Made by a program: the position numbers and the translations under genes. Below, in pieces: positions 2,775 through 62,280 of a stretch of DNA of 64,000 bases (position 1 is the stretch's first letter; each line of letters opens with the position of its first letter). Source of the stretch: a virus; IMG/VR virus record IMGVR_UViG_3300025093_000019, positions 1-64,000 of that record. The stretch is one strand, 5' to 3'. The notes under the pieces are model-generated. The model made no database searches. It was not told the DNA's origin and saw nothing but the letters and a program-made list of their open reading frames with translations.

Positions 2775-2829
2775 AATGTTTTTACGCTCTCTTTCGAGAA
2801 GAATTCAACACTACAATATAGTGATTAAT

Positions 2830-3537
2830 TTATAATTCTCCTCTATAAGATACACTAAATTTTAGTGTTATATCTTCTCCTGTAGGAGTATTCGCAATAA
2901 GAAGAGTTATGTCTCCATTTGTGTCTATAGCAATAGTCCATGCACCATTGTTTGCAAAAGAAGTTATAGTAGATGTTTGCTCCCAATATACAGTGAAATA
3001 ACTTTTTACACTTGGTCTTGCTCCTACAGGTAAATTTCCTATTGGATCATCTGAATATGCACCTGTTAAGAATGCTTTAGTAATATCACCTCTGAACATT
3101 ACATGCTCTCCTGAAAGACAATACTCTAAAGTTCCAGCCCAACCATTAGTAGCACCAATAGCAAACCAAGAAGTGAAATCTCCACCTGTACCAGGAATAC
3201 CTTGCGGTCCCTGCGGCCCCTGTGGTCCGGCAGGCCCTTGAGGGCCAATTGGACCTTGAGTACCTGGTGTTCCTTGAGGTCCAGCTGGTCCAGCCGGTCC
3301 TTGTGGACCTTGGCTTCCTGTCGATCCATCACCACATGGCCCTTCAGGTCCTTGAAGATTTACCCATGGTCCCCATGATCCATCAGGATTTCTAAACCTA
3401 ATTTGAGTTCCATTCCATTCATGTTCTGGAACATCGCCAACCCCTCCTTGAGGTCCTTGTGGGCCTGTAGGCCCCATTGGTCCCTGTATAGGTTCAGGGC
3501 AATTACATTTATTCTTTTTACAACTTGGACAAGACAT
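2830..3537 (-). CDS. Collagen-like virion protein, probable fibre or head decoration
   Basis: This 235-residue protein is the last gene of the leftward operon. A short Cys-rich head (MSCPSCKKNKCNCPEP) is followed by a G-x-y triplet repeat (GPMGPTGPQGPQ...), an interruption, and a second block of roughly 17 triplets up to about residue 115. The remaining ~120 residues are a non-repetitive, probably beta-rich C-terminal domain. Collagen-like triplets form trimeric rods in phage fibres, and the C-terminal domain would be the trimerised tip or receptor-binding part. It follows a tail-collar fibre gene, which supports a place in the adhesin set. The Cys-rich N-terminus is unusual. Confidence 0.8.
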   Translation of the reverse strand: MSCPSCKKNKCNCPEPIQGPMGPTGPQGPQGGVGDVPEHEWNGTQIRFRNPDGSWGPWVNLQGPEGPCGDGSTGSQGPQGPAGPAGPQGTPGTQGPIGPQGPAGPQGPQGPQGIPGTGGDFTSWFAIGATNGWAGTLEYCLSGEHVMFRGDITKAFLTGAYSDDPIGNLPVGARPSVKSYFTVYWEQTSTITSFANNGAWTIAIDTNGDITLLIANTPTGEDITLKFSVSYRGEL

Positions 3538-3549
3538 GCTTTCTATTTT

Positions 3550-4518: not shown

Positions 4519-4520
4519 GA

Positions 4521-4973
4521 CTAAACAATTTTAAATGGTGGAATACAATCATCATTATTTTCGATACGCATATAGTCGATTCCCTTCCCTATACTTGTAC
4601 CTAATCCAAATACACTGGATAATATACCCTTCATATCAATGCCGTGTTTGCATTTAAAATATTCAGTCATACACTCAAAGCCAAACTGGTCCCAAATCTC
4701 TTTCATAGTAGGAAGCTTGTCTGGACAATCAGTAGCTGTCTCCGGATATATATTCTTTAGCTTTAATTGCTGCTCGTAAAAAGCAATTTGACCATACACA
4801 AACATGTACCACAGATCATTCATCATATCATATGACTCAGTGGCACCATCTTGATTCCCAAATACTTCATAGTTCTCAGCATTACACATAAGATCAGAAA
4901 GCATAGGGTATATCTTGTCCCAATAGTTCTGGAACAAGACATCATTTATTGTTATTTCTTCACAACAGGTCAT
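4521..4973 (-). CDS. Hypothetical protein in the distal tail/adhesin set
   Basis: This 150-residue Cys-rich, acidic protein starts at MTCCEEIT (ATG 4973), two bases after the stop of the propeller gene. An in-frame start at 4991 would overlap that gene and is less likely. It is mostly helical with many Cys (TCC, CNAE, DCPD, ECMTEYFKCKHG, DDCIPP). The C-terminal part of the neighbouring 803-residue protein has a similar aromatic/Cys-rich helical character, so the two may be related or assemble together. No family recognised. Confidence 0.6.
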   Translation of the reverse strand: MTCCEEITINDVLFQNYWDKIYPMLSDLMCNAENYEVFGNQDGATESYDMMNDLWYMFVYGQIAFYEQQLKLKNIYPETATDCPDKLPTMKEIWDQFGFECMTEYFKCKHGIDMKGILSSVFGLGTSIGKGIDYMRIENNDDCIPPFKIV

Positions 4974-4975
4974 AA

Positions 4976-7778: not shown

Positions 7779-10700
7779 TTATTCCTCACCTTCCGGGATT
7801 ACCTCCCCTACAGCTTTAACAGTTGAACTAAATGGAACTAACCTGTCTATTTCTTGCCAGCTACCAGTTGCAACTTCCCAATATCTTCCTATTGTTTCAA
7901 GTAGTGGAACACTAACTATAGCATCTGCTATTAAAGATGGCTGCCAAAGCATTAAATCTAAAGCTCCATATTTTAATGTTCTTAGGAATCTTGAGTCTGG
8001 AAGTAAGTTTTGTTTTCCTTTCTTATCGTCATCCCAATCTACTTGTGTCAATCCTGCGTAAATGAAAGACATGATAGCAGCTGATACCGTATCGGCCAGT
8101 AAACGTGATACATTATACTTATCTGTTTTAGACATACTCATCCAGGCTTCTTTTCCATTGTACTTGGCCTTTTTAAGTTCTGTAAACAAAGTTGACATAG
8201 ATCTAACCATGCCTTTTGTCATTCTTTGTTCCCAAACATACTCTCCATCTTTTTTGGTCCATTCACCTTCAACAGGAGAGTACTTCTCAACATCAAAGTA
8301 ATTGTATAATTTATCTGGTAAGTAAGAACGATATTGCATAAACAATCTTCCAACAGTACCTCTTGACAGTCTGGTTTGGGTTAGTGCATCCATTGAACCT
8401 ACTATGTATTTGTCAGCTATTGTTTTAAGCTGTCTTTGCATCATAAGTTCATATCCTCGTGGCATAGCCTCATCTACAGAATTCATAAACCCGTCTTCTA
8501 CAAGTCTATTTTTTATGAACTCTTTCATGGCTTGACCATCTTCACCTTCCCATCTTGGATCTAAGTTCTCATCGTATGCTAATTTACCATTTTTAACTGA
8601 ATAAGCAGCAATTGATCCATCTTTTTGCATAGCGGCAACAGCAGCTAATCCTCTAACATAATAGTCAGTAATCCAGTTCGTCCAGTGCATTGTATGACTA
8701 GTGAATAGATTTTTATCCATTACCTTTTTTCTAGGGTTATGCATAAGATCTCTTTCAGTCATGTCTGCAACTTGGTATTCCTCCATTATAGCTTCAAACA
8801 GTTCTCTACCAGTTTTAGAGGCAAGCATATTTAATGCTTTTTGTGCGTCTTTACGCCCATAAACACCAGAACCACTCATGTCATTAGCAATTGCTGTATT
8901 CATGAATTGGTTTGCATTCATTAAAGCAGATGTCATACCTAGAGGTACGTTTAATCCTAAACTAAATGCTGATGTTACTTGTAATGCTTGATTTACAAAC
9001 TTATCTACATTTACAGGGGCCTCCTTAAATGGAAGATTTAAATTGATATCTGTTGTTTCAGCTTGACCTTTAATAACAGAATTAACATAGCTTGTTAGAT
9101 ATTGAATTGATTTTTCCTGATCACCTTCTAGCTTCATTAATTCTGCATTATGAAGTATAGCTTGACCTCCATTGATAATCGGAAGCAATTCAGATTCAAC
9201 TATTCTTTTTCTATTGCTCGAAGACATCATTAAATTCATGATCATTTCGAGGTTTGTACTTAACGATTCATTAGCAAACTGATCAGTGAGAATGTGACCA
9301 CCAATAGCCTTATCAATACCCATTATACTCATTCTAGTATCAGATCCAAATACATCAGATTGTACTCCAGTTTGACTCATGAATATATCACTCATCTCTG
9401 TAAGTATTTTTTTCTTCTTAGAATCTTTTGATTGCTTTACATTTGCCTCATCATAAAGATCATCCATATTTGAAAGCTGATACATAAACTTCTCATATGC
9501 TTGTTTAGCATTTTTAGTATCCATCTTCATGAGCATTTCATTAACTGACTTGGATATCATAGGAACCATACCTTTTCTCCAAATCTTTTCAAGCTGCTCT
9601 CTAGCATCTTGTTCAGTGTACTTATTTTTGAAGTATCTATTTTGATGGATTAAGTTTTTGATCATCTCTTTTTCTAGAGTGTCAACTACAAACTTACCAA
9701 GTTCTACATCCCCAGGTGCTAATGTTCCATCAGCAATAAGCTTTTTAGTTTCTGGATCATTTTTGTCCCAATGTATTTCACCTGAATTTACTTCTACATC
9801 ATTTCCATTGATGTCTTTTATCATTCTAGTTTTAAATAAAGGCTTGAATTTATCACCAGCTAAATTTTGTAAGAAGTTCCATTTTCTTTGGTCCGGATGC
9901 TTCAAGAAATATCTTTCATCATAAGCTCTAAGTAATGGATTAAATTCATTTTTCTGCCATTTACTAATAGTATCAACATTCTTAGATAAAGTCTGATATG
10001 TTTTTTCTTGAACCCAATTTACTATCTCGTGTTCAATATTATGAGTAGTTGCGGTATAAGATGTTATAAGATTCAAGTCATTTGTACTGATTCTTTCAAA
10101 AGCAACAGGTGTTTTTGTAAGCTGCTTTAAAGTAGCACCTAATAAAGCATACTCTCTATCATCTTTTAAAGACTCTGGATTCTTTTGTTTTTCTAACCTA
10201 AGCATATGCCACTTGACCATTTCAAGAATATCCTCTCTACTTCCAACGCCTGATAGATACTCTTCTATCCTAGAGACAGAACCTTTCATAGTTCTAAACT
10301 CCCAAGAATTAGGATTGTCAGTTGAAAGATCTACTTGTCTTTGCTGATACTCTCTTCTTAAAGAGTACAACCAAGGCTGGTCATAGTCCTCCTCATAAAG
10401 AGTATCATCATTTATTACATCTCTGATTTCAGGAGATAAAGCTTCATACAAAGGCTCAATTTCTCTCATTGCCTTTATATTATCCATATAGTTGTCCATC
10501 AATACATAAGATGATTCCACATCGTTAGAGTGGACACCCATAACTTCAACTAGCTTTATTTTTAGTTCTGGATTTGCCTGCTTCATTGCCATGACTTGTA
10601 GAGTCAAAAGCATTCTTCTCATATCCCCTTCATTGTTACCAAAAGAAACACCTTTTTTCATTGCTTCTTTGTCGTCCATGAAGTTTCTAAAGAGGTTTCC

Positions 10701-13700
10701 TTTACCCAAGAACTTTTTACCAAGTCTTAAAGATGTGATATCAAAAATAGATATTGATCTTCCTGCGTCATCAATTGATTTATGGATAACGATAATAGGA
10801 TCATATCCTTCAAAGGCCTCAATATAAGGTATGTGTTGATTTCCACTGTCCTTAAATTCACTATACCTCATAAAGACATCTGTCTTATCATAGTCCATCT
10901 TCTTTTTAACCTCAGCTAAGACATCAGCATTATATCTAGATCTTCTATCTTTTGTAGGGAAAAAGTCTTTTGATATTTCAGGGTTTGTTTCTGCTCCAGA
11001 AGAAAGCCAATCCATCATAGTGTTCTTGTACTTTTGCTCAAACTCTGTGAACTTAGGTACTATCTCTTCTTTAATGAACTGCTTAGATGCCATTTCATCC
11101 ATGTCCTTAAAGTAGAACTTTTCACCGCTATACCAGTAAGTCTTTGTTTTAGGATCTATGTTTGAATAGATCGTATCAATTAATTCATCTACACGATACT
11201 CAGAGAAGTTTTTGATAACACCAGAAGGTTGTAAAGAGTTAATAATGTCTTTACTAACTGCCGCTTCCGGAACATCATATTCAGCTTCTGCTATCATATA
11301 AGATCCTCCTTTAGGATCTATTACAATTTTGTTGTCTTGATTTATATCCATTGCGGACATAAACTCATATTTACCTTCCTGAATAAAGTCATTAGTTATA
11401 CCTATAACTTGATCTAATGCATTGATTTGATTTGGAGTTCCATCACCAAACATAGATTTAATTCCATTCAAGAACTGATTCCAAGCACTACTCAACCATG
11501 ATTTAGCCTCTGTTTCTATTTCAGCTTCAGGAATACCATCGATACCCTTCATGAATTTTTGTAGGTTGTCATTTGTGTACGCCTCAGCAACAAATTCATC
11601 TAGGTTCTTAAATCCATAATTCTCAAATTTAGGATTTCCTTCTGCATCTTTTACATCAGCTTTTGATTTAACATGATCATAAAGCTTTTTGATATCACGT
11701 TGATACTTTAATGCTGATTCAACTCTAGCTCTTTCTGCTGTATTAAACTTACTAAGATCTATATCTTGATCTATGTTTAATGCGTAAACAGTAAAGTTAT
11801 GTAGCATTTCATGTAGGAAAACTCGTTCAGAATACTGACTAGGATCTGATTTATTAACCTTTCCATTATATATAGTGTCAAGATTAATTTTAATCCCCGT
11901 AGTACCCCAATTGAAATACCCTCCAACTGTGGCACCTTGATCTGCTTTTTCCTTAAAGTCAGCGTCTTCATCTGTACGAAGCCAAGAAACTAATCCTTTA
12001 TCAAGCCATCCACTTTCATTTGCTTTTAATAGCAAGTCTGCAATTAGCCTGTGGCCATCATGCTTAGTTCTTTCTTGTATGGCCCTAAGCAATCCTTCTT
12101 TTGTGTCATTTGATCTATACTCATCAATTGCTTTAGCACTAGGGACGTGTGGACGTAAAGTAACAGTATTTCCAACTACACCTCCAGTTCTATCTATATG
12201 CATAGTAGATCCATCTGGCATATAAACTATTCCAGATCTATAAGAAGGTCTATTTTTGAAAGTGATCTTTATTGATTTTCCTTGTCCAGCATCAATGTAA
12301 TTTTGAAGATCACCAAACTTCTTCATTACTTGAGGATATCCTTTTAGAGTAAAGTCACGTCCCCCTTCCCATTTACCAACCATTGTTAGGTTGCTTTCTA
12401 ATGGATTGTAACTATTAAATGTTTGTGCAACTTTTGACATATACATTTCACCAGTGTCACGATCTGTCATTGTAACATGATCTGCTAAACCTTGGCTACG
12501 TTCTAAATTCTTTTTAAAGAACTTAGGTGCAAGCTCCGGATTTTCAGACCATAGTTTTGCTCTAAATTCATAATTCTGAAGAAGAGCTTTATCATCACTA
12601 TTGTATAATGCATCTTGCATAAAGACATCCATCATTCGCTCATAGGATCTACTAACAGTTGTTCCTTCTGGAGTGTTAAGCTTGAAGGTTAGATCTGGAT
12701 TATCAAATATTGCTTCTTCAACGGAATCTAAGAATTCAGAGAATCTAACAAATATCTCATTATCCATAGCTTGGTAAAGAGTATTTGTCTTAAAGTTAAA
12801 ACCATCTTTCATTAACTGATAAGCATAGAACTTTTCTTTTAAGTTTCTTGGTAGCTTTGCAAAGTCAGCCCTCATATCAATAAGCTGACCTTTAGTTAAT
12901 TTACTAGCGTTCTTAATTTCAAGTACGCTATTTATATTGGTATCTCTAATTGTTAAGTTGTCTAAGAAAACATTGTTAGTTAATAACTTTTGTTCTCCTG
13001 AAGGATTGGGACTTCCATAAGCATCTTCTTTAAGCTTCATAACATAAGAAGGGAACTCTGTACCAAACCTATATCTTCCTGTTGTAGTAGAAAGATCGTA
13101 GCTTCCTACTGCTTTTGTACCAGACAAAGGAGGCATTGTAAGTCCAGGTGTGTTCTTGTTGTAATTAGTAGAAAAATACAGAGAAACATTAAACTTATCG
13201 AATTCTTTGAAGAATGAATAGTAAGACTGCTCACTCATCCAATCGTTTAGTTTGTTATCTCTTAGGTACTTTTTCATTAACCCCTGAACGAACTCACTAT
13301 TCTTAATGAAAGTTACATCCATCCACTGAGTCATTTTGTTGACCGCATCCAAATAACTAACAACATGAGGCAGTGCCTTAACAATTCCAGGTATATCGAT
13401 GTAGCTTCTAATTGCTTCTTCTTTTAATCGCAACTTTTCAAGGTCCTCTTCCGGTAAGAATCTTTTTTTAGATTCCCAAAATTTAGGATCTACATTAGTT
13501 CTACCTTTTGTGAAATCATCTATAGTTTGATTTAGGGCATATTCAATTTGACCTAATTGTTGATTTAACTTGTAATCAAATACAGGAATACCCTGGCTAT
13601 CAAACTTAACTACATTGTTTAATCTAATTACAGCTTCACCTAAATGAGACAGATCTTCTAACCTTCCTAGTTGATCTAGTTGTTCTCTAATGTACGGCTC

Positions 13701-16700
13701 CGGATCATTTTCTATGGATTTAAGATTCTCTAACTCATTCTCCATATTAGAAATCATATTCTGTTTGATTTCTTGATATTGTTCAGGAGTATAAGTTTCA
13801 AATCTTTCCGGAAGCCCCATACGATCTGTAACCAACACAACGTATGTACCATCTTCTTTTATTTCTGCTTCTTCAAATATTGGAGGAACAATGCTATCTG
13901 GTTGTGCCAGTGTAGCTTCTATTAGAGCCATTTTATCTTTTATGGCATCCATTTCATCTTGTGCATTTCCTTCTAACGACTCTCTCTGTGCTTCAATAGC
14001 ATCAGCTATAGTCATCTTTTTAAAGCTAGAAACTCTTCTAGAATACTTAATTCTATCAAAGACTTGTCTTACAGAGTCTTGATCAAGCAATGTACTTATT
14101 TGATCATAAGTGTAATTTAACATTGCTGCTGCACCTATGATGTTACTAGACTCAATAGTAGCACCTAAAGTACCAAGGATAAGTTCTTTGGCATTATCGG
14201 TTGCAGCATTCAAGTATCCTTCTAGTCTATCTGCAATTACCTTAGAATCAATGTCTTCTATTGCCAGTCTTTGGTTTAACTGAATGTTCTGAGCTTTTAA
14301 TGTCTCTAAGGCATGTGTAGTATATGAGAAGTTTTTAATGATGTTGGCAAATACACCAATCATTTTATCTCCTTCAAATATGTTGTCATAGTAGAATGCA
14401 TTGGTTCCGAAATCATGATGGTTGTTTTGGAACCTTTCCATTTGTGCTTTTTTGTCCGCAACTTGTCTTCTTAAAGGATTCAAGTTAATAGGACTCATAT
14501 AGATTTTAGCGTTTGAAGGATCTGTATAATACTCATACATTAAATCAAACTGAGAATTCATGTCTCCTTTCACTCCTTTATCTAGAATCCTACCAGTATC
14601 TCCAACAGACTTAAAGAACACGCTCAATGCATCGATATCGTAGTCACCACCATCTAAGATGTTCTTCAATGAACTTGTGTAAACAGTGTTACCATTATCA
14701 TTAATCCATCCAATTGCTTCACCAATAAAACCACCAGAAGCCTTTGATGTAGGTACACGGTTTAATACAAGCTTTGTAGTTTCTCTTAGATTCTGAACAT
14801 AAGCTATTGCTTTTTCAGCACTCTTGTATTTTTGCTGTATGAATGTGTCTCCATTCTTGCCTTCCTCTGATCTATATTGAGATTCAATAAATGTTTTAAG
14901 ATCCTCATCAGAAACCTTTTTCAAGTTTACAAGCTTACCATCTGCTCTTCTAAACATGAATGCATCATTTAATGAGAAGTCAGGGTTCTCTTCAAGGTAT
15001 TCTCTAAATCCAAACTGATCAATATAACTTAACGGAAGAATAATTTCAGCCGGCTTAACATATACATTTTGAGCAGCAACAGCATTATCAAACTCTTCAA
15101 GTGATTCTATTTTAACACCTGGTTGATCAGCATAGTAAAACTCCATAGGACGAAGCTGACGTTGAGTAAGAGGTGTATCACCAAACTCTCCTTTTTCAAC
15201 TTCTTTTTCCATATAGATATTACCATCCTCAGACTCATAAACATCAAAGAAGAATGCAGGAGCTTGACTCATTTTAACTCCATTTGATTTTGGTCTAATT
15301 GCATGCTTAGTTACCTGGTTAATTAACTGCTGTTTAATCTTACCCATGTTAGGTAAGTTCAAGCTAATATTACCATCTAGCCTACTCTTAAATAAAAGCT
15401 CAGTGTATTGAGTTAACTCTCCAACTTGCTCTGCCTGCTGAATTCCTATATCTTTCAACCAATTAGCAAACGCATCAGGATCTAATCCGCCTTCATCAAC
15501 AAATTTTTTCATCATGTTGCTGATTGCATCATCAGATATCTTAGCTTTCAAGCTGTTTATTTGACCTACCCTTTCTATGTTTTGAGATCCAACACCCATT
15601 TCAGCTAAAAGCTGAGTAGGCTGAGATTGCTTATCTGTCTTTTCAACATCTTGTGCTGCATTTAACTGAATACCAAAGAATCTGTTATCAAGAGTTGTTG
15701 ATACATTCCAAACATCATCATCGATATTTTGTATTGCTCTTGCACCTGTCTTCACTCCAGATCTAAATACTGCTTGTCCAAGTATTTCTGAAGCTCTTCC
15801 TGTTGAAATAACTTCTTCTGTAATTTCATCAAGAGTTCTAGTTCCATTTTCCCAAGATCTATACAGCTGCTGAAGAACTGGTCCAGGCATCATCTTTCTG
15901 AAGTAATCTCTTGCTTTTGCAGAGTTCCTTAAAATACCTTCTGTCAATTCAAGACTTGCATACTTTATATACAAGCTATCATTAGTCGCTAAATCTGTTT
16001 TCTTGTAAACAGGTTTACCCATACCTACACCCATGACACCAAGTTCATTACCCCCTAGAGAGTTCTTGAGCAACCTAGTGTATATTGGGTTTTCAAAAGA
16101 CAAACCATCAGTGTCTTCTGTTGTTGATTTGGCATTGAATATAGTTCTTAACTGATCGTATTCTTGAGTTGAAATATCTTCAAGTATCGCAATGTTCGTA
16201 TTCATTCCAACACCTCTTGGAGTACTCGTATCAACAACCCATAAAGGTGCCACGGCACCGGAACCTCTCTTAAAGTAATTGTCAACACCTTTATACTGCA
16301 TAGTATTTCCGTCAACAATCTGGCTTAAATAGAAATCATTAAAGTGATACATATAGAAGAACGACTCTAATGTAGGGTTTACATCCCACCATGTATAACC
16401 TTTAGGAGTTTTCTTAGTCATATCAGGATAGGCCCAATCAGTTTCAGTAATTCTATCAGTAGCTGTTCCTCCTCGTTCTCTCCATAGCTTAACCTCTTTT
16501 TTCAAGTGGTTAGCAGCATCCATATGAGTTCTAAAGAATATTGACTTAATCATTTCATCAACATTCTTGTCTTCTGTAATGCCTTTTTCTTTTAGATCTT
16601 TTTGTAACTGAGATTCAAAGAATACATCTTTTGCAGCATTAAAGTCCAAATCTACTCCTGCTTGTGCAGCAGTATTAATTTCTGCATTAATCTCTTCATC

Positions 16701-19700: not shown

Positions 19701-22700
19701 ATCTTCTGCTCTTGTTAACAATTGTGATTCCTGCTCTGCTTTTACATTTAGCTTCTTGTCCTTACTAGTAAAATCAACAGTCTGAACAATCTTTCCTTTC
19801 ATTATCTTAGAAATCTTCTTGTCCATTATATCTAAGGCAGATTCTAAGGATTTCAATAAAGCGGCAGGAGTGGTTTTTTGATTAACACCACGTAATCCTA
19901 TTTCTGCTTCATTCTTGACATATAAGTGTTCCGCAAGCTCTGGCCATCTTTGATCGAAAGCTTTTGTATCCGGATCTATTAAATATCCTCTGTTTTGCTG
20001 GAACAATTTATATGCTTTAGTTTTTAAAACATCCCTACCAGTGTAAGCAGTTCCCTTTAGATCGTTTAATTCACCCTTAATAAGGTTGTAGTGATTAGAA
20101 TCATATTCAGGACTTTGAAGTATAATAGTACTCTTGTCAAATGCAGGACCTACCTTCCAAACATCTACAGCCCATGTGGCTATCTTTGAAGGTTTACCTT
20201 TAGCGTTTGTTATTGTCTTGTAATTAGTAGTCCAATAAGGAGTTCCTATCTGGAATCCTTTGTCTTTTAGTTTTCCTTTAAGTGCAGTCCAAGATTGCTT
20301 GTATTCCCCATACTGAACAGAACCTTGTCTTAAAGATTTCAGTTTTGCACGACCTACAAACCCTTGCTCCTGTCCAGCACCCTTTGCTCTAAATCCTGCA
20401 AGATCTAAATTAAACGATCTTAGATTCATTTGCGATTGTGCATTCTTATCGCCTTTAAATCCTTCTCTAATCTTTTTAAGTAGATCTTCTACAGCACCTT
20501 TGTCTTTATAGTTAATTGGCTCTCCTGTTTTTAGGCCGCCATCAACTCTTTTTCCAAAGTCTATTTCAGGTTGCGGAAGTGTAGCTATTACATTGTAATT
20601 GTTGTCCTGAATATACTTTAATGCTTGGTCAAAATTCAATTCATTTCCAACGCTCTTACCATAAGAATCAGCATAGAACCTTGCCATCTCACCAAGAGTT
20701 TTTGAGTCTGCCTTGACTAGCAATACATTATTCATTAACTCTGGCTCTCCATCATCATTTAAAAGCTCAATGTTTTCGTGGAATGTTATATTTACAGCAG
20801 GAGCAGCCGTCCCATCATTCAGCCTTGACTTAATTGATTTGATAAACTCATTTTTAAAGTTTACATGATCATTCTGAAGATCCCATCCTCCTCCAATTGT
20901 ACCTTGTTGGCTTTCTTTTTTCGGGTTCTTATCAAAGAATTCAGCTGCCTTTCTGATCTTGTTCAGGTTTCTGGTTCCGTCAGGATGATACTGATTTTTT
21001 GCTGCTAACAATACTTGCTTGGCAGCACCAATAAGACCAGCATGATAATTAGCCGGCTCTGCATCAAAAGGAATTTCTACTGATATCTCCCAATAAGCCG
21101 TTCTTCCTGCTCTGTCTCCAGGTACAACTTCTTGGTATGAAACTCCAGAGATCCTATCATCTTTAATAACTAAAGAGACATATTTAGAGTTTTCGTTAGA
21201 TTTGTTTGGCTCTGTTACAAACGTACCTACAATTGTTTTTTGCTCATCTACATATGAATCATAATTTAAGTTAAACGCTGTAATTCTTTTGTCTGATAGT
21301 TCTGTTCCATACCATTTTTCAAATCCTCTAGATATACCACGGAACGTCAATTCTATTGCGTCGTCAGGAAATACTCCTGTATTTTGAAAAGTCTTTTGTG
21401 GGCTTTGAGATGCATTACCATACGCAAAAGTGTATCCAGCAGCATGCTTCATTGCACCTTCTTTGTAGATTCTTTCAGGGGTTCCGTTTGCTTCGTTCTG
21501 GTTTAAAGTGTCAATACTAGTAACGTCCTGTGTAGAGAACATTTGCTTAAACTCAGTTTCTGTTAATGGACTTTCCTTATCATGATTGATTTCATAAAAA
21601 GTAGTTCCCTTTACATCTTTGTAAACACCGGTAACTTCAACAAGAGTTGTTGGATCATTATTGTTGACAAACATTTGACTTATGTCAGAATGTCCATCGT
21701 CATAGTTTCTAACATTCTTGTCTTTAAATTCAGGCAAGATATTGTTATCAACCATTGATTCTCCATATGCTTTATACTCTGCAAACTCTTGAGAGTCATA
21801 AGGCATAACAATAAAGTCAGTGTCTTCTACTTTAGCGATACTGGCATTATCTTTAATCATGGCTTTCACTACGCCTACATTTCGGATCTTATATTCAGGT
21901 CTTCCAGACTTTTCATCACCCTTTGTAAGTATTCTAGCGTAACCACCCAATTGTGCTAGAGCAGCATTTAGTCCATTATTGAATTTTTGAGATCCATCCG
22001 GCATCTTAATAAACCCTTTTTCAAAAGGATCTGCCTCATTGGTGTCTTCAAAGAATTCGTGACTTCCAGGAGTAAGTGTTTTAAGATCATAAATATCTAG
22101 AACTGGTATTCCATCTTCTATACCAACTACATCTACAATATCAATAGTTCCTGCAACATCATTAATGTAAACAGCAGCAATGGTTTCAGGAAGAGTTCTG
22201 GATCCACCTTTTGTAAGTCTCTGAGCAATTGGTATTGCAACATTTTGAATTACGTCATTAATAAATGGATGATTTTCAAATGTAGAATCAGCATCATCTC
22301 CAATAGGTTCTATTTTAGATAGCTTTGCTTTTTTACTCTTATTGTGCTTATCTACAGCTTCATTATAAGCCTGAATAAGATTTGTAATCTCTTCTTTATC
22401 AGACTTTAAAAACAATTTGTTTCTTCCTGGTGCTTGTCTTGTTAAATAAGCTTCTACTATTTTATGTGCTGCTTGACCTCTTAAAGAGTAGGATCTATCA
22501 TTAAAGTCTTTTGTTGGATTTGTTAGATCTTGGTTCTTTCTTTCTGTTACAGAATAAAGACCTTTTCCATCCATTACATATCTAAACTCAACTCCACCAA
22601 CTTTAAACTTAGCACCTAAATCAGGTGCCTTTTTAAGTTTGCCTTTTTTGTTAGCATTTTTGATTTGATTTCTTATTCCTTTGAATTGATCATCACTAAG

Positions 22701-25700
22701 TTCTTGAAGTTTAGTGTTTTGCTTTGGACCATCTCCTTCATTGTTTCCAGGTGTACCTGTTTCGCCTACTGGATTTGTTTGTGAACCAGTTATAGAAGAA
22801 AGGAAGTTATCCATTCTTTGAATCTGATCATCTGTTGCTGTTGAAGTCTCTACTATTATTGGAGTACCCTCTTCGCTATATCCGGTAGGAGAAAGAACTA
22901 ATGCATATCCAGCTTTAGAATCATCATATTTTTTAGCTCTAGTGGCAGCTGTAAGCATTGCTCTGTTATACAGGTGCTTTGCATCTGCTTTTTCAATAGC
23001 TACAAATATTCTAGGGAACTCTAAACCTTGAACATAGCTTTCACCTTTTTCCATTGTCTTTATAACACTATCCAGATTCAGGTTAGGGTTATTTATTTTT
23101 GACTGAATATATCCTTTTGCTGCATTTTTATCAGCTTCTGTATATACAATCAAGACACTATTTGTTTGCTTAAACTTATCTTGAGAGTTTAGATCATCTG
23201 CAAATCGATCGTACATTTGGCTTTTGCTTCCGGAGAAATATTCTAAACCATTATTTCTTTCAGAATCATAAGTTCCTTTTGGAAGAGTTACCTCTTCACC
23301 ACTAAATATGTTTATTCTAAATGCATTTTGGAAGTTGTTAATGTCAGCGGCACCAGATCTAAATACCTGTGTCGTTGGCATTGTTCTTTCCATTTTTCTT
23401 TCAACAGCTAAAAGCTCTCTTGCCTGCTGATTAATATCTGTCATTTGAGACTGATCACCCAAAAATATAACCTTTGGCTTTGCTACATTCTGGCCTTTTA
23501 ACGCAGCCACTAGTGTTTTAAATTCAGGTGTACTAATACTAGAGGCTTCATCAATAACAATAACGTCAGTATTCTTAAATGATTCTATGTTATTGTTGAT
23601 TCGATCTATTAGCTGATTAATATTGTATCCTTGGTCCGTTCCATTTTGTCTGATAGACATCATATTGCTTGCAAGAGCAGATTGTAACTCAGTACTAGGT
23701 GCTGAAAGATCGATATTCAAGTTTCTTCCCTTGTAACTAGAGTACATTGATAAAGCTGTTTTTATTATCAATGAAGTTTTACCAGTTCCTGCAAAACCAC
23801 GAACAAATAATGACCTACTTAAAAAGTCATTGATCATGTGTCTTGATGTCTTATCAGATTTAGACTGTCCAGTTATAGCCTCCTCTAAATCCATCAACAT
23901 AGCATTGTCAGGATTCACTAATAACCCATACACATGCTTAATAACTTCCATCTGCTCAAAAGAAGGAAGAACTCCAGATTCTTGTCTTATCTGATTTACA
24001 GCTTCTTGGAAGCTAGAATAAAAACTTTTAGAGTCTAGTCTTGCTATATTCTGAATGTAGTTCTGGAAGTAAACTCTTGCAAATTGTTGCTTCGCTCTTA
24101 AACTATCTGTCATTAAACCTTCCGGTGTTGACATAGAAAAAGACTGATAAGTATATGCATCATCATAATTTGCATCTGTAAACTCATCAGCATTTAAGTA
24201 AGTTAACTTTTTCTTTTTAGCACTCTTATACTTTTCAAAGTATAGAGTTAACTCTTTAGCGACCTTTTTAGAGTCTTGACCTTTTAAGAAGTTGTGTAGA
24301 TCCGACTCAATATCAACAATGATTTTATGAGCCTGGTCTAAAGCTTCTATCGGATAATTTCCATTATCTGCATAAAAAGATTCAGCTTCATTTAATAAAT
24401 CTCTAACTCTTGCTTGATTCGCTTCAATACCTTCGTAAACTTCTTTATCAAGATTAGGAAGAGCAGTAATCATATTTATGATGTCATTCTTAATCTTGTA
24501 GTCATTTAGTCTTAGTCTTGACTCTTTATTCTTTTTGTCATTTACATCTAATCCCTGCTTAATTTTTAAAGACTCCAAAAGAATTGCTTTGTCCATTAAC
24601 TCTTCTTGGATTCTTTTTGCCTGAGCATCTGTTATCTCGGCTTCAGCACTTGGCTTTAAGTGTCCAATGTCATGTTGTTTACCAACCTCTGACATGTATC
24701 TACTTGCATTGACAACATATGAGTTATTTCTAATAGAACGCTCTAAAAGCTCAATGTTCTGTAGATCTTCTTCATTAAGTGTTCTTGATGCTAAATCTTT
24801 CAAAGACTCAGTAATCGATATCTCATTACCTTGTCGATCGACATATGTATCATAATAAAGAGACTTGAAATCATCTTCATTGAATTCAACTGGAGATTGA
24901 GGAGTTATTCCTTGTGGTTTCCCATAATGACTTAGTTGAGATAAAGGAATTGCTTCTTCCCTACCTTCAACCATTGCAAACTGCTCTCCGTCAAAATCTT
25001 CAATGCTTTGAACTTTTCTTGGTACTCCAAATTGTTCTTTACCATCTATTTTCCACTGAACATTATCACCAACTTTAACCTCAGAAGAGGCTTCAAAGTT
25101 CTTAATAGTATTGTCTATTTCGTTCAAAAGCTTAAACGCACTGTTTCTTGCGGAACCAGCTGGAGCTTGCTCAAGTTTACCCATCCAGTAATCTTCAGCA
25201 GTCATACCCATTATTTCTTCCTGCTCTTTAAATGCAGCAACTTCTTCTTCAGTCGGTTCTAAAGCAGAGCTATCTGGAATGCTTTCGAGAATTGCCTCTT
25301 TTTCTGCTTGAAGTTCTTTAATTAACTTCTCTCTTCCTGCTTCACTTATTCCAAGATCTGTTGCTTTTCTTTGCAAATCTGCAATCTTACCTAAAGCAGT
25401 GTCGTAATCTCCAATGTCTTCAGCATATTGACCAGAAATATCTGGATCTACCATAAAGTCATCAGCAAGAACTTTTGATTCAAATTCTTTACGCTGCTTT
25501 GATCTTTCTTTTACTTGCTCAATAGTTTCTGCACGTTTTCTATCATATCTTTTATGAACATCATCCATTGCTGTCGCAGGAGGAACATGATTAGATCCAT
25601 CAGGAGCAACCATATATGTATCATTTTCAGCACTGAAATGCTTTAAATGAGTGTTAACCTGATTTTCTTTTACTCTTCGTCCAGAAGTAATCTCTTTTAA

Positions 25701-28268
25701 TTGAAGTGATAGATCTTTTTTCTGTCTTTGTAGATCTTTTAATTGTTCTTCTAACTCAGCAGTTTTTTCAGCATTCCCTACATTTTCAGCCATCTCGTTA
25801 TTTAAGGCTTCTATCTCTCTTTGTAAGCCTTGTGAAAACTTCTGATACTCAAAGGCTTCTCTAAGCAATGCTTTACCTTCCATGTTAGACATCATCTCTT
25901 CAATGATTCTAGGATTAGGCCTTCCATTCTTTTCGCCTTGTCTTGCTATTTCTTTTTTGATGGTTTCAAAAAGCTTTACAGACTCATCAAGCTCTTGCTT
26001 AAATATTCTGTAATTCTCTTCATGAATACTGATTGAGTTCGGATCATTCTCATCTACTAGTTTACCATCACTAGTAACATCTGTAGGACCAAATGTACCC
26101 ATTGTTCCTTGAACCTTCCCAAATGCCTCATCAGCTTTTTTGTAAAGAATATCTTGATTTCCTGAAACAATAAAGTCAGCAATCATACCATCTCTTGTAG
26201 GTCTTGTGCTTGTGTTTCCATTCATGGCATTTGTGATACCTTGAATACTACCCATAAATCCACCACCTATAGCACCAAGCCAAAACTCTTGTGCTATCTC
26301 TCCTTTAGTGTTATTCCAGTAGTTACTAAAGAAACCATCGTTATGATTGTAATAATTAAACATACCGCCTTCTGGTATATTCTCAATCATGTTTACATTT
26401 TTCTCGTAAGTCTCTTTAGATATTTCTCTTCTTTGCTGATGTTTTTTATCCCACTCGTAATACTTACCGTCTTTAGCTTCGTATTTATATCGATCGGCTT
26501 TAATTCTAGCCTCTCTATTTTGAGAGCTAACTATGTAATCATTAATAGTAGTGTAAGCACCTTCAAGTCTTCCTTCTATAACTTCTTCAGTACCTTCTTC
26601 TAAAGCTGCCTTCATAAAGGTTGGCATCTTTTCATAAGCGTATGAACCACCTCTTTTAGTAAGCTCCCATGTTTTCTTTCCTAAGTTTTTACTGTGTCCT
26701 AAAAGCCTATTAACTAACATCTTAGATGCAGCTTTAGTTTCTTCTTCTGTCAACTCCTTAGCTGTTTTTCCAAACGAACCAGCTGCAATATCAATAATTT
26801 CTCTTTTGATAAGTTCGTCAGCATCAGATTTAACTAAAAATCTTTGTAACCCATCATCCAAGATGTTTGGGCCAAACCTTTCAACAGCAAATGCTGTAGC
26901 AAGCATAGGACCATAAAGAAGTGTTTGCTGATCTTCAGTAAGACCTATTTCGTAACCGGTTCTTTTTAAACCGTCAGCAGCTTGAATTGCCATTAATCCT
27001 GCACCAAGTCTTGTTCCAAGTTTTTGAAGCTTATGTAACTTTTCTATATCAGTAACACCCCTAGCTGCTGCCAACTTTGTAGGTAATTTTCTTGTTATAA
27101 CCATTTCTAGAATTTGGCCAATAACAGCACCTGAATGCCATGCCAATGCAGTTCCATTATCATTCCAAGAAACATCTAAAACATCTTGAGGAGTACTTAC
27201 GGAAGCCCAAGAAGCTAAATTCTTAAAATACTTATCGCCTTGATCTAAAAAATCATCATCTCTTCCCGGAACATGATCTATTCCACTAAAAGTGTATATT
27301 CCATATTGTGAATTCGTTCTCTGTAAAACATCATTAATCCAGTCAGTTAAACCAACAATACCAGAAGGTATTTGAGCTAAAGTATTAACTACCACCTGGT
27401 CCCAAAGGTTTTCATACCATGTAGAATACATTGCTTTAGGACCATTTGAAGCAAATATAGCATCAGAATTATACACATCATCATGAGCAGAAACTTCTCT
27501 AGCAACAGGAACACCTTCTCCATCGTAATCGACAATAAGAACTGTATTTGATTCTGGACCTGGAAAAAGACCTGCACCCCAAGGGCCAAACCACTCATCA
27601 CCATCTTTGTCTAAGTCACCAACTCTTATTTCCTGTCCATCTTCTGTGACTATAGTTTTGTAGTTTCGCTTATTAGGATCATAGCCACTATCTTCATCAC
27701 CTTCATTTACAATAGGTAGATAGTAACCCATATCATAGGCTAACTGCTGATCTGTTTTTTGTCTAATAACTTTACCAGTCTGATCAAACCTCCATCTGGT
27801 ATCACGACCAAAAATATTATAAACTCTTGGCTGATGATATCCTCCTGGATCTTTTAATTCAGCCCAAGGTGAAGTCCATGTTCTTAAATGGTCAGTTATA
27901 CCAAGACCATTGTCATAAACACCTTGTTTATAGTTTTTGTATTGATTAGAGTATGTTTCATATCTTTGTTCAAAATCTGCATCACTAGGTTTAATTCCTA
28001 TTTTTTTTGCAGTCTCATTGTAGCTTTTTCTAGCAAATTCTTTATCTCCTAGAGTTACGTTTATTGTTGGATCGTTCATTACCTTTCGGTATATTCTTTC
28101 ATCATCCAACCCATACATTTTGTATGTAAAATAATCACGATCTGAAGATCCAACTAATGCTTCTTGATTTCCTCCGTTTCCACCAGTATTGTTTCCTGCT
28201 GGCGTTGGATTTGTATCACCGCCTCCTTGATAGTTTTTTCTAACTACAATTTCGTTTTTCTTTTTCAT
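7779..28268 (-). CDS. Giant polyvalent virion protein: helicase, nuclease, RNA polymerase and peptidase motifs
   Basis: One frame of 6,829 residues (about 0.75-0.8 MDa). After a Gly/Asn-rich start (NYQGGGD) and helical, partly membrane-like segments come the following. SF1 helicase, about 1430-1795: GFAGTGKT (K1497), VIDEAS (D1573, E1574), FLGDQSQ, VQGLEF, TAATRAKK (R1777). RecB/Cas4-type nuclease, about 1930-2110: H1935, GTID (D2043), YDLK (D2061, K2063), QLGGY. RNA polymerase region, about 3950-4620: YFKRGSG (K4000), SGVKTG, NRVPT (R4504), DGGDYDID (D4542, D4544, D4546). Zinc peptidase: HEMLH (H5486, H5490), with E5558 or E5562 in LDEFVAEA. The C-terminus has hydrophobic stretches. Giant RNA polymerases of crAss-like phages travel in the virion; that location is inferred here. 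Confidence 0.85.
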   Translation of the reverse strand: MKKKNEIVVRKNYQGGGDTNPTPAGNNTGGNGGNQEALVGSSDRDYFTYKMYGLDDERIYRKVMNDPTINVTLGDKEFARKSYNETAKKIGIKPSDADFEQRYETYSNQYKNYKQGVYDNGLGITDHLRTWTSPWAELKDPGGYHQPRVYNIFGRDTRWRFDQTGKVIRQKTDQQLAYDMGYYLPIVNEGDEDSGYDPNKRNYKTIVTEDGQEIRVGDLDKDGDEWFGPWGAGLFPGPESNTVLIVDYDGEGVPVAREVSAHDDVYNSDAIFASNGPKAMYSTWYENLWDQVVVNTLAQIPSGIVGLTDWINDVLQRTNSQYGIYTFSGIDHVPGRDDDFLDQGDKYFKNLASWASVSTPQDVLDVSWNDNGTALAWHSGAVIGQILEMVITRKLPTKLAAARGVTDIEKLHKLQKLGTRLGAGLMAIQAADGLKRTGYEIGLTEDQQTLLYGPMLATAFAVERFGPNILDDGLQRFLVKSDADELIKREIIDIAAGSFGKTAKELTEEETKAASKMLVNRLLGHSKNLGKKTWELTKRGGSYAYEKMPTFMKAALEEGTEEVIEGRLEGAYTTINDYIVSSQNREARIKADRYKYEAKDGKYYEWDKKHQQRREISKETYEKNVNMIENIPEGGMFNYYNHNDGFFSNYWNNTKGEIAQEFWLGAIGGGFMGSIQGITNAMNGNTSTRPTRDGMIADFIVSGNQDILYKKADEAFGKVQGTMGTFGPTDVTSDGKLVDENDPNSISIHEENYRIFKQELDESVKLFETIKKEIARQGEKNGRPNPRIIEEMMSNMEGKALLREAFEYQKFSQGLQREIEALNNEMAENVGNAEKTAELEEQLKDLQRQKKDLSLQLKEITSGRRVKENQVNTHLKHFSAENDTYMVAPDGSNHVPPATAMDDVHKRYDRKRAETIEQVKERSKQRKEFESKVLADDFMVDPDISGQYAEDIGDYDTALGKIADLQRKATDLGISEAGREKLIKELQAEKEAILESIPDSSALEPTEEEVAAFKEQEEIMGMTAEDYWMGKLEQAPAGSARNSAFKLLNEIDNTIKNFEASSEVKVGDNVQWKIDGKEQFGVPRKVQSIEDFDGEQFAMVEGREEAIPLSQLSHYGKPQGITPQSPVEFNEDDFKSLYYDTYVDRQGNEISITESLKDLASRTLNEEDLQNIELLERSIRNNSYVVNASRYMSEVGKQHDIGHLKPSAEAEITDAQAKRIQEELMDKAILLESLKIKQGLDVNDKKNKESRLRLNDYKIKNDIINMITALPNLDKEVYEGIEANQARVRDLLNEAESFYADNGNYPIEALDQAHKIIVDIESDLHNFLKGQDSKKVAKELTLYFEKYKSAKKKKLTYLNADEFTDANYDDAYTYQSFSMSTPEGLMTDSLRAKQQFARVYFQNYIQNIARLDSKSFYSSFQEAVNQIRQESGVLPSFEQMEVIKHVYGLLVNPDNAMLMDLEEAITGQSKSDKTSRHMINDFLSRSLFVRGFAGTGKTSLIIKTALSMYSSYKGRNLNIDLSAPSTELQSALASNMMSIRQNGTDQGYNINQLIDRINNNIESFKNTDVIVIDEASSISTPEFKTLVAALKGQNVAKPKVIFLGDQSQMTDINQQARELLAVERKMERTMPTTQVFRSGAADINNFQNAFRINIFSGEEVTLPKGTYDSERNNGLEYFSGSKSQMYDRFADDLNSQDKFKQTNSVLIVYTEADKNAAKGYIQSKINNPNLNLDSVIKTMEKGESYVQGLEFPRIFVAIEKADAKHLYNRAMLTAATRAKKYDDSKAGYALVLSPTGYSEEGTPIIVETSTATDDQIQRMDNFLSSITGSQTNPVGETGTPGNNEGDGPKQNTKLQELSDDQFKGIRNQIKNANKKGKLKKAPDLGAKFKVGGVEFRYVMDGKGLYSVTERKNQDLTNPTKDFNDRSYSLRGQAAHKIVEAYLTRQAPGRNKLFLKSDKEEITNLIQAYNEAVDKHNKSKKAKLSKIEPIGDDADSTFENHPFINDVIQNVAIPIAQRLTKGGSRTLPETIAAVYINDVAGTIDIVDVVGIEDGIPVLDIYDLKTLTPGSHEFFEDTNEADPFEKGFIKMPDGSQKFNNGLNAALAQLGGYARILTKGDEKSGRPEYKIRNVGVVKAMIKDNASIAKVEDTDFIVMPYDSQEFAEYKAYGESMVDNNILPEFKDKNVRNYDDGHSDISQMFVNNNDPTTLVEVTGVYKDVKGTTFYEINHDKESPLTETEFKQMFSTQDVTSIDTLNQNEANGTPERIYKEGAMKHAAGYTFAYGNASQSPQKTFQNTGVFPDDAIELTFRGISRGFEKWYGTELSDKRITAFNLNYDSYVDEQKTIVGTFVTEPNKSNENSKYVSLVIKDDRISGVSYQEVVPGDRAGRTAYWEISVEIPFDAEPANYHAGLIGAAKQVLLAAKNQYHPDGTRNLNKIRKAAEFFDKNPKKESQQGTIGGGWDLQNDHVNFKNEFIKSIKSRLNDGTAAPAVNITFHENIELLNDDGEPELMNNVLLVKADSKTLGEMARFYADSYGKSVGNELNFDQALKYIQDNNYNVIATLPQPEIDFGKRVDGGLKTGEPINYKDKGAVEDLLKKIREGFKGDKNAQSQMNLRSFNLDLAGFRAKGAGQEQGFVGRAKLKSLRQGSVQYGEYKQSWTALKGKLKDKGFQIGTPYWTTNYKTITNAKGKPSKIATWAVDVWKVGPAFDKSTIILQSPEYDSNHYNLIKGELNDLKGTAYTGRDVLKTKAYKLFQQNRGYLIDPDTKAFDQRWPELAEHLYVKNEAEIGLRGVNQKTTPAALLKSLESALDIMDKKISKIMKGKIVQTVDFTSKDKKLNVKAEQESQLLTRAEDVNNYGFYLGTDQIDVSSITHSKGGIVDQTDSDFLRDLGKFNIDPNKRSFSEVEASENDGEYNPDTNEDNPDVLEDPEERKDSFMKFAKNIYGDHGLADEAKKHVAQQIIKFSNFNRDLNTPAMSISDTIANVVNWYKAKSQIIENNYFNLELSDGSKDVKTYADVNGTNASKLKGQQPLLYTVYTFGKNTEALISFINSAVPSLNLSDKKIKKLGVYLAEQIQGDDEILKSLNETSQTNMMDNLDERNFTDTLSDLVKLHIRHTPLRYYTDENTYEVDLDGRTIDEPTIFKVLSDASQKARFENENTKGFNDLQKLKYHLREIFNNAGVGTPTYNTVRSFYEDYFGVTEAAQGPTAVSEYTDPSKKLLSHEELRMGSMVNVATGKSNLAILGYDPDVVKAKGIASDNLISAIITHFGSVTTRSTIDVYSDTKRYTDFDEVTGETFTTSSKFYNAKKSSMAIGSHISQSIKSRLDNTLFSIVDGEVMVSERIRERLVGKNNDISVTSSGVTLKIKGAPDKQVIKFVKGKNKSQIVSFELGENVRTSDIKTLFNLFNIGKLVYDNAINRYMDTVEDTDQDNPDLKVDQAKIAEIAGMWMLTAKEAVDPSISIRSLLEKYYEENAYKTESLDELNEDSTIDSAEIGEEFYKPTDMWRLTQNLGKVQSDSELGNNAMWYYTVDGKKVYRNVNASTIDRLFPNSQISGKNSGSGLKEMVKTIIERTTFDELSNNPNFELTQDESGAYGLEVLNPYLNPESDWEVVDMVRMGGLANERNGSRHGRQMTELDFAEFVINGLFVEDVARGNRIPTFRLPYHNTSNKAGVPVFDIKLPNNPFTLKDGSISVDRQWIKDNVINIFRIINNQRKKSASRIVDVIGNIPGTKLHQVINDTTLDAQNASQQYNEIVESFIADPNTMKWYLADLQTGANRLDIVDAFKRSDLVIDSDYTIRKLEDGNEYVFAGPSAMMEFDRVYNWNNFSRLKRSAEVPKAKRDLAELIEGGFYDEEINAEINTAAQAGVDLDFNAAKDVFFESQLQKDLKEKGITEDKNVDEMIKSIFFRTHMDAANHLKKEVKLWRERGGTATDRITETDWAYPDMTKKTPKGYTWWDVNPTLESFFYMYHFNDFYLSQIVDGNTMQYKGVDNYFKRGSGAVAPLWVVDTSTPRGVGMNTNIAILEDISTQEYDQLRTIFNAKSTTEDTDGLSFENPIYTRLLKNSLGGNELGVMGVGMGKPVYKKTDLATNDSLYIKYASLELTEGILRNSAKARDYFRKMMPGPVLQQLYRSWENGTRTLDEITEEVISTGRASEILGQAVFRSGVKTGARAIQNIDDDVWNVSTTLDNRFFGIQLNAAQDVEKTDKQSQPTQLLAEMGVGSQNIERVGQINSLKAKISDDAISNMMKKFVDEGGLDPDAFANWLKDIGIQQAEQVGELTQYTELLFKSRLDGNISLNLPNMGKIKQQLINQVTKHAIRPKSNGVKMSQAPAFFFDVYESEDGNIYMEKEVEKGEFGDTPLTQRQLRPMEFYYADQPGVKIESLEEFDNAVAAQNVYVKPAEIILPLSYIDQFGFREYLEENPDFSLNDAFMFRRADGKLVNLKKVSDEDLKTFIESQYRSEEGKNGDTFIQQKYKSAEKAIAYVQNLRETTKLVLNRVPTSKASGGFIGEAIGWINDNGNTVYTSSLKNILDGGDYDIDALSVFFKSVGDTGRILDKGVKGDMNSQFDLMYEYYTDPSNAKIYMSPINLNPLRRQVADKKAQMERFQNNHHDFGTNAFYYDNIFEGDKMIGVFANIIKNFSYTTHALETLKAQNIQLNQRLAIEDIDSKVIADRLEGYLNAATDNAKELILGTLGATIESSNIIGAAAMLNYTYDQISTLLDQDSVRQVFDRIKYSRRVSSFKKMTIADAIEAQRESLEGNAQDEMDAIKDKMALIEATLAQPDSIVPPIFEEAEIKEDGTYVVLVTDRMGLPERFETYTPEQYQEIKQNMISNMENELENLKSIENDPEPYIREQLDQLGRLEDLSHLGEAVIRLNNVVKFDSQGIPVFDYKLNQQLGQIEYALNQTIDDFTKGRTNVDPKFWESKKRFLPEEDLEKLRLKEEAIRSYIDIPGIVKALPHVVSYLDAVNKMTQWMDVTFIKNSEFVQGLMKKYLRDNKLNDWMSEQSYYSFFKEFDKFNVSLYFSTNYNKNTPGLTMPPLSGTKAVGSYDLSTTTGRYRFGTEFPSYVMKLKEDAYGSPNPSGEQKLLTNNVFLDNLTIRDTNINSVLEIKNASKLTKGQLIDMRADFAKLPRNLKEKFYAYQLMKDGFNFKTNTLYQAMDNEIFVRFSEFLDSVEEAIFDNPDLTFKLNTPEGTTVSRSYERMMDVFMQDALYNSDDKALLQNYEFRAKLWSENPELAPKFFKKNLERSQGLADHVTMTDRDTGEMYMSKVAQTFNSYNPLESNLTMVGKWEGGRDFTLKGYPQVMKKFGDLQNYIDAGQGKSIKITFKNRPSYRSGIVYMPDGSTMHIDRTGGVVGNTVTLRPHVPSAKAIDEYRSNDTKEGLLRAIQERTKHDGHRLIADLLLKANESGWLDKGLVSWLRTDEDADFKEKADQGATVGGYFNWGTTGIKINLDTIYNGKVNKSDPSQYSERVFLHEMLHNFTVYALNIDQDIDLSKFNTAERARVESALKYQRDIKKLYDHVKSKADVKDAEGNPKFENYGFKNLDEFVAEAYTNDNLQKFMKGIDGIPEAEIETEAKSWLSSAWNQFLNGIKSMFGDGTPNQINALDQVIGITNDFIQEGKYEFMSAMDINQDNKIVIDPKGGSYMIAEAEYDVPEAAVSKDIINSLQPSGVIKNFSEYRVDELIDTIYSNIDPKTKTYWYSGEKFYFKDMDEMASKQFIKEEIVPKFTEFEQKYKNTMMDWLSSGAETNPEISKDFFPTKDRRSRYNADVLAEVKKKMDYDKTDVFMRYSEFKDSGNQHIPYIEAFEGYDPIIVIHKSIDDAGRSISIFDITSLRLGKKFLGKGNLFRNFMDDKEAMKKGVSFGNNEGDMRRMLLTLQVMAMKQANPELKIKLVEVMGVHSNDVESSYVLMDNYMDNIKAMREIEPLYEALSPEIRDVINDDTLYEEDYDQPWLYSLRREYQQRQVDLSTDNPNSWEFRTMKGSVSRIEEYLSGVGSREDILEMVKWHMLRLEKQKNPESLKDDREYALLGATLKQLTKTPVAFERISTNDLNLITSYTATTHNIEHEIVNWVQEKTYQTLSKNVDTISKWQKNEFNPLLRAYDERYFLKHPDQRKWNFLQNLAGDKFKPLFKTRMIKDINGNDVEVNSGEIHWDKNDPETKKLIADGTLAPGDVELGKFVVDTLEKEMIKNLIHQNRYFKNKYTEQDAREQLEKIWRKGMVPMISKSVNEMLMKMDTKNAKQAYEKFMYQLSNMDDLYDEANVKQSKDSKKKKILTEMSDIFMSQTGVQSDVFGSDTRMSIMGIDKAIGGHILTDQFANESLSTNLEMIMNLMMSSSNRKRIVESELLPIINGGQAILHNAELMKLEGDQEKSIQYLTSYVNSVIKGQAETTDINLNLPFKEAPVNVDKFVNQALQVTSAFSLGLNVPLGMTSALMNANQFMNTAIANDMSGSGVYGRKDAQKALNMLASKTGRELFEAIMEEYQVADMTERDLMHNPRKKVMDKNLFTSHTMHWTNWITDYYVRGLAAVAAMQKDGSIAAYSVKNGKLAYDENLDPRWEGEDGQAMKEFIKNRLVEDGFMNSVDEAMPRGYELMMQRQLKTIADKYIVGSMDALTQTRLSRGTVGRLFMQYRSYLPDKLYNYFDVEKYSPVEGEWTKKDGEYVWEQRMTKGMVRSMSTLFTELKKAKYNGKEAWMSMSKTDKYNVSRLLADTVSAAIMSFIYAGLTQVDWDDDKKGKQNLLPDSRFLRTLKYGALDLMLWQPSLIADAIVSVPLLETIGRYWEVATGSWQEIDRLVPFSSTVKAVGEVIPEGEE

Positions 28269-62041: not shown

Positions 62042-62063
62042 ATTTACTTAAAACCAATACATC

Positions 62064-62264: not shown

Positions 62265-62280
62265 GCCACGCCTATTTATT

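Follow-up and report, generated by a model that had tools for sequence, protein, structure and literature searches.

Can the transcription machinery of crAss-like phages, which is known as several virion proteins, be made as one polypeptide? The question is raised by the minus strand of the stretch of DNA analysed here (the window, 64 kb out of a 79,289-base IMG/VR virus record), in which positions 7779-28268 form one ORF of 6829 amino acids with an ATG start and a single terminal stop. An earlier note on this DNA had described the frame as one protein that combines helicase, nuclease, RNA polymerase and peptidase motifs and had suggested that it is delivered with the genome. We refer to the predicted product as the giant.

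A single coding frame in a crAss-like genome

With this base composition, a frame of such length would lack a stop by chance with a probability of about 10^-250, and a codon-usage score trained on the window's other genes ranked the giant frame first of the six possible frames in 67 of 67 overlapping 200-codon windows. GC3 stays between 0.19 and 0.29 along the whole ORF. Since the frame is best throughout and GC3 is steady, no frame change or non-coding stretch is visible in it, and the uninterrupted frame of 6,829 residues described in the earlier note is real.

The surrounding genome is that of a crAss-like virus. The Crassvirales markers TerL, portal and major capsid protein are all present (matching PHROG families phrog_6681, phrog_6547 and phrog_11589 with E values of 1.1e-95, 2.4e-86 and 1.2e-44, respectively), and the Crassvirales gene order is kept in that the structural block is followed downstream by the giant transcription protein. 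In a GenBank phage collection TerL matched 152 records, mostly crAss-like and all below 60% identity, and tblastn of TerL and the capsid protein likewise returned mostly crAss-like records, again all below 60% identity. As ten IMG/VR contigs carry a terminase that is the same as this one or close to it (76-100%), the phage represents a real lineage, distant from the named crAss-like groups. These ten contigs, all of 4-17 kb, are too short to reach the giant, and the TerL search found no close contigs in genome_contigs. Close relatives of the giant itself were found neither in viral_contigs, searched with RNA polymerase, helicase and C-terminal slices, nor in genome_contigs, searched with alignment A2. 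The remainder of the record encodes a DnaB-like helicase, a DnaG-like primase (CHC2 and Toprim), a DnaA-like domain and AAA_24 and MoxR-like ATPases; given the DnaB-like protein, the helicase of the giant is not the sole helicase of the phage.

Upstream of the giant, on the same strand, lie three ORFs which by their position are candidate ejection proteins. They comprise 637 (28278-30191, directly upstream), 621 (30210-32075) and 499 amino acids (32066-33565); the two larger ones have no profile match, and comparison of all three with gp45 and gp46 profiles gave nothing above controls. The 499-residue ORF begins with a hydrophobic N-terminus rich in Gly and Ala, which might be expected of an ejection protein that inserts into membranes. 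Further upstream, a 1307-residue virion structural protein (33578-37501, minus strand) is a homologue of phi14:2 g071 and phiCrAss001 gp44. Just downstream of the giant, an 803-residue ORF (4976-7387, minus strand) contains beta-propeller repeats of the BNR/Vps10 type, along with an ASH-like match, and is possibly a receptor-binding or virion surface protein; at 2830-4518 two ORFs of the same strand have matches to numerous tail fibre and tail collar families. At both ends of this minus-strand late block, at 1-2700 and 62000-64000, the GC skew switches, and so does the direction in which the longer ORFs run.

Enzyme parts and their order along the chain

Plain hmmsearch of the whole giant with long family profiles reported nothing; matches were obtained with slices searched under --max and with hhalign, run in local mode, which replaced global mode. 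The four signatures of the earlier note, for which it had named a profile search of slices as the check, fared unequally. An SF1 helicase, an RNA polymerase (RNAP) and a zincin were matched by profile comparison and in the order proposed, whereas no slice matched a PD-(D/E)XK profile and the nuclease is a probable assignment from an ordered motif.

The N-terminal region (residues 1-1400; 24069-28268, minus strand) is weakly similar to gp47-type proteins, via a short segment only (EEGTEE, residues ~552-585), with E values of 0.002-0.006 (0.0055 and 0.0022). It is followed by a RecD-like SF1 helicase at residues 1404-1800 (22869-24059, minus strand), at a distance from the N-terminus similar to that in two of the relatives discussed below (G001 and G005). 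The SF1 RecD-like set of Walker A, DE box, GDxxQ, QGxE and TR motifs is entirely present, including GFAGTGKTS (1491-1499), VIDEASS (1571-1577), GDQSQ (1604-1608) and TAATRA (1773-1778). Pfam AAA_30 matches with an E value of 5.5e-13 (49.5 bits against a cut-off of 27) and TIGR01447 (recD) with 5.4e-14, well under its equivalog cut-off. Pfam, NCBIfam, the motifs and the profiles of relatives together support the assignment, helicase activity being predicted.

The nuclease would come next. The ordered RecB-type motif H-x3-E..GxxD..DxKT..QxxxY occurs once in the giant, at residues 1935-2110 (H1935, D2043, D2061-K2063 and Q2106-Y2110, within a region of residues 1925-2125; 21894-22496, minus strand). 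A stricter form is expected 0.003 times per shuffled copy of the protein, a figure that serves as a guide only because the motif was written after the region had been noticed. The giant has no match to a PD-(D/E)XK family in Pfam, NCBIfam or PDB, a profile of crAss replication-block exonucleases gave no signal in the region, and an AlphaFold model from single-sequence input had a pLDDT of 35, too low to be of use. When 159,159 residues of other block proteins were scanned for the same motif, it matched in two of them. One, ProJPt gp16 (L056 26154-30809), adjoins the ProJPt giant and is independently called PDDEXK_1 by Pfam (1.6e-6); the other, ProJPt gp14, is a muzzle protein and hence a false positive. 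PD-(D/E)XK domains have been noted in large crAss-like transcription proteins, and SF1 helicases among crAss-like genes (PMC7886860). We regard residues 1931-2114 as a probable PD-(D/E)XK nuclease of the RecB type.

No domain was recognised between residues ~2125 and 4160, a stretch which lies partly inside the estimated extent of the polymerase, the equivalent of gp50/gp66 (residues ~3020-5240; 12549-19211, minus strand, with borders extrapolated from the ORFs of relatives). The polymerase core itself occupies residues 4163-4746 (14031-15782, minus strand), with RVP at 4504-4506, DYDID at 4542-4546 and AATDNAKE at 4688-4695. Local hhalign of residues 3500-5300 against a 14-sequence alignment of crAss RNAPs gave a probability of 93% and an E value of 2.8e-7 over the core and placed DYDID on the catalytic DFDID of these enzymes; the reversed-sequence control gave nothing. 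Because hmmsearch of the RNAP slice scored little above reversed controls, we base the claim on hhalign together with an alignment of seven sequences, IMG/VR relatives included, in which R and P of RxP, G and the three D of GxDxDxD, and DNAK are invariant. With these seven sequences as input, AlphaFold modelled the core at a pLDDT of 35, too low for two double-psi beta-barrels to be read from the model. From hhalign and the alignment, a crAss-type RNA polymerase core, presumably catalytic, is supported. A DNA pattern for GGDYDIDA gave 0 matches; a looser pattern gave nine contigs, which were rejected as relatives, having no homology to the giant.

Where crAss RNAPs read RxPxQ..GSDFDID, the giant keeps DxDxD but reads RVPTS..GGDYDIDA, so that Q and the residue after the motif differ. 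The latter is Ala in the giant (DYDIDA, 14628-14651, minus strand) and Lys or His in the aligned crAss-like phages. This substitution, the very long chain with its large unassigned stretches and a zincin of the polyvalent type would suit a tape-measure-like protein or polyvalent effector with a degenerate RNAP part and a mainly structural or anti-host role. We consider such a protein extremely improbable, since the chain retains the catalytic aspartates and the conserved residues around them, the relatives are short-tailed crAss-like phages that have no such tape measure, and the order of the parts matches that of a transcription block. We therefore continue to read residues 4163-4746 as a polymerase core.

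The C-terminal part is gp49-like. It contains a zincin at residues 5457-5650 (11319-11900, minus strand), with LHEMLHNF at 5485-5492, its HExxH at 5486-5490 and DEF at 5557-5559, and the conserved C-terminal region of gp49-type proteins at residues 6274-6751 (8016-9449, minus strand). A gp49-family profile built without the giant matches both (1.8e-11 and 8.1e-8, respectively), as does hhalign to crAss gp49-type proteins (2.6e-7 and 1.6e-9). The zincin is also homologous to that of N4-like virion RNAPs (tblastn E value 2e-5, hhalign 4.8e-8), those of Presley (3492 residues) and FBKp27 (3546 residues) among them, and to an internal virion protein of the Autographiviridae phage SKa-3 (gp49 profile, 1e-9); the loci that share it are L060 2452-12930, L061 2338-12978 and L062 1489-6066. 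Beyond the zincin, the giant showed no similarity to these proteins. HExxH is absent from gp49 of phiCrAss001, Dulem virus 41 and cr50_1 and is consequently not essential across the order. The zincin assignment is supported, and peptidase action is predicted. With several unrelated enzyme domains and a zincin in one phage chain, the giant has the make-up of a polyvalent protein. N4-like RNAPs fused to zincin domains have been described (Iyer et al. 2017, PMC5512222), and in an N4 structure preprint the HExxH subdomain precedes a large helical C-terminal subdomain (PMC12633501). Helicase, RNAP core, zincin and gp49-type C-terminus, each with homologues in other phages, follow one another in this order within one coding frame.

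Divided and joined blocks in relatives

But how unusual is such a chain? The earlier note had called the combination unusual, and this holds for the full fusion; as a set, the helicase protein, the RNAP and a third, gp49-like protein are ordered adjacent genes in distant relatives. All relatives examined distribute the equivalent parts over at least two proteins, and the giant is the longest chain among those examined.

In the Steigviridae, phiCrAss001 has gp47 (2341 residues), gp50 (the RNAP, 2412 residues) and gp49 (1349 residues) as separate genes, and phi14:2 g067, g066 and g065 are their positional counterparts. These phages share with the giant the RNAP core, the gp49-type C-terminus and the placement after the structural block, and phi14:2 g065 also shares the zincin HExxH. 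They differ from it in that the block is made as three separate proteins of 1349-2412 residues and that gp49 of phiCrAss001 lacks HExxH. Pfam scans of gp47, gp49, gp50, g065 and g067 showed neither a helicase nor a nuclease.

A search of IMG/VR with the RNAP motif alignment provided six relatives. Read with TGA as Trp, four of these (G001, G002, G005 and G006) show consecutive ORFs for a helicase protein of 2755-3038, an RNAP of 3020-3263 and a third protein of 1148-1557 residues, spaced by at most 15 bases or slightly overlapping. The first ORF of G001 matches Pfam AAA_30 (9.4e-10), and in two of the four (G001 and G005) BLAST links the third ORF to the giant's gp49-type region. The order is that of the giant; unlike the giant, the parts are separate ORFs with in-frame TGA, and the helicase ORFs showed no recognisable nuclease motif. 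At all four loci (L041, L042, L045 and L046) the transcription block is open only with TGA as Trp, and at a further locus, L044, an open frame requires TAG to be read as a residue. Slices of the giant match the profiles of the first, second and third ORFs of the four recoded relatives with E values of 2.5e-10, 6.8e-7 and 3.8e-8, in the same order, and the reversed-sequence control gave none under 0.02. Since its slices match consecutive ORFs in order, the giant is equivalent to neighbouring genes of the same orientation fused into one, and fusion rather than splitting was presumably the direction of change.

Partial fusions are found elsewhere. CrAss-like RNAP genes of up to ~6,000 residues have already been published (PMC10136315), and Suoliviridae with annotated giants have one protein of 4,400-6,386 residues with the RNAP DxDxD (such as cr272_1 gp23, 6386; cr130_1 gp79, 5801; cr50_1 gp59, 4774), followed by a separate gp49-type gene. 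They resemble the giant in carrying the RNAP within a single giant chain but differ from it in the separate gp49-type gene, and, read with the standard code, several of these genomes contain in-frame stops. In cr50_1 gp59 (L027 13826-28150) the chain also includes a RecD-like helicase, which however lies after the RNAP (residues 4249-4448) and not before it; either the helicase has moved or it was acquired twice. Flavobacterium phage Fpv3 gp32 (4287 residues; L057 15940-28803), with LDYDIDK at 3110 and HEVIH at 4061, is probably an RNAP and a zincin in one protein. Like the giant it has DYDID and HExxH in one chain, but it is shorter, has no Pfam helicase and leaves the gp49-like C-terminus to the adjacent ORF gp33. 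In ProJPt the block is divided into other pieces. The comparison covers regions other than those of Bohxovirus and Dulem virus 42, which are annotated as many short ORFs.

From these relatives two joints can be estimated in the giant, the first between the helicase-protein part and the RNAP part (residues 2500-3050; 19119-20771, minus strand; extrapolated from the relatives' ORFs), the second between the RNAP part and the gp49-like part (residues 5190-5380; 12129-12701, minus strand; from the relatives and the gp49 matches). Could separate genes have been joined here by sequencing error, or separate proteins be made from internal starts? The giant frame is known from one assembly only, a search for the exact joint sequence in viral_contigs, a collection that may leave out near-identical records, gave 0 matches and hence no second assembly spanning a joint, and there are internal in-frame ATGs with Shine-Dalgarno-like sequence, for example at residue 5315. 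Against this, an error would be needed at both joints, the frame shows no change or non-coding gap anywhere, and large fusions are present in many Suoliviridae. We judge an artefact of this kind very improbable and take the giant as one chain.

New are the complete joining of the block, a chain longer than any other examined and the evidence from gene order. The crAss-like transcription block can be one polypeptide, and its parts must therefore tolerate equal copy number and joint packaging. The giant also supports the view that helicase protein, polymerase and gp49-like protein are one functional unit and gives this unit a defined order.

Proposed working and comparison with giant virion polymerases

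Taken together, it is highly probable that the giant represents the transcription and ejection cargo of crAss-like virions in the form of a single chain. It would consist of a protein, probably of gp47 type, that carries the helicase and a probable nuclease, of a two-barrel-type RNAP and of a gp49-type protein. That it is delivered with the genome, as the earlier note had suggested, is probable in view of the homology of its RNAP and gp49-like parts to proteins detected in virions. The virions of phiCrAss001 contain gp45, gp46, gp47, gp49 and gp50, with mass spectrometry for gp47, gp49 and gp50, and a model proposed for ejection in this phage involves partial unfolding (PMC10172136); phi14:2 g065 and g066 are annotated as virion proteins from MS/MS.

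By analogy with these relatives we infer that the giant is packaged, ejected and catalytically active and acts as one chain. It would be made late and packed into the capsid, as in the relatives, and, following the route of phiCrAss001, would leave through the tail partly unfolded, before the DNA and accompanied by the ejection proteins encoded next to it. After refolding in the host, the RNAP part would transcribe early genes and the helicase part would open the entering DNA or move it; the nuclease, should it be real, might act on DNA ends or host DNA, and the zincin might trim phage or host proteins. A more integrated machine, in which the chain of ~0.77 MDa (from its length) is ejected whole, the helicase, perhaps with the nuclease, feeds opened DNA to the RNAP during entry and the parts act at a stoichiometry of 1:1:1 set by the fusion, seems doubtful to us. 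The same doubt attaches to its strongest form taken jointly, in which the internal zincin later cuts the chain and releases its parts. The helicase-polymerase fusion does fit the idea of the P23-45 authors that such fusions couple DNA entry and transcription (PMC10770324), and if ejected whole, the giant would be an extreme example of protein threading through a phage tail.

Alternatively, the chain may be a polyprotein from which its own zincin, or a different protease, releases separate helicase, RNAP and gp49-like proteins, whether before ejection or afterwards. The zincin lies just past the estimated second joint, zincin processing of multidomain phage proteins has been proposed (Iyer et al., PMC5512222), and the same parts are separate proteins in relatives. 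However, no cleavage site or product is known, several gp49 homologues lack HExxH, and in the relatives that retain it but have separate genes there is no chain of this kind to be cut. Moreover, the 5,002-residue DxDxD RNAP fusion of P23-45 is present at full size in virions (PMC10770324). Processing into separate proteins is in our view unlikely, and we retain the single-chain cargo as the preferred reading.

CrAss-like, N4-like and Autographiviridae phages have this zincin in common in proteins that they eject, and its role in phage entry thereby becomes a concrete question. The N4-like virion RNAPs of the Schitoviridae are ejected, as the giant would be, and resemble it as very large single-chain polymerases with a homologous zincin (PMC12633501), but theirs is a single-subunit, T7-like polymerase in a chain of ~3,500 residues. 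The giant itself does not fit an N4-like enzyme, the similarity being confined to the zincin, with no T7-like polymerase by Pfam and a core that matches crAss RNAP. By description, gp96 of P23-45 (5002 residues), the tape measure of a long-tailed phage and not part of a crAss-like block, resembles the giant in that it joins a DxDxD-type RNAP and a metallopeptidase domain in a single chain, here one found in virions (PMC10770324).
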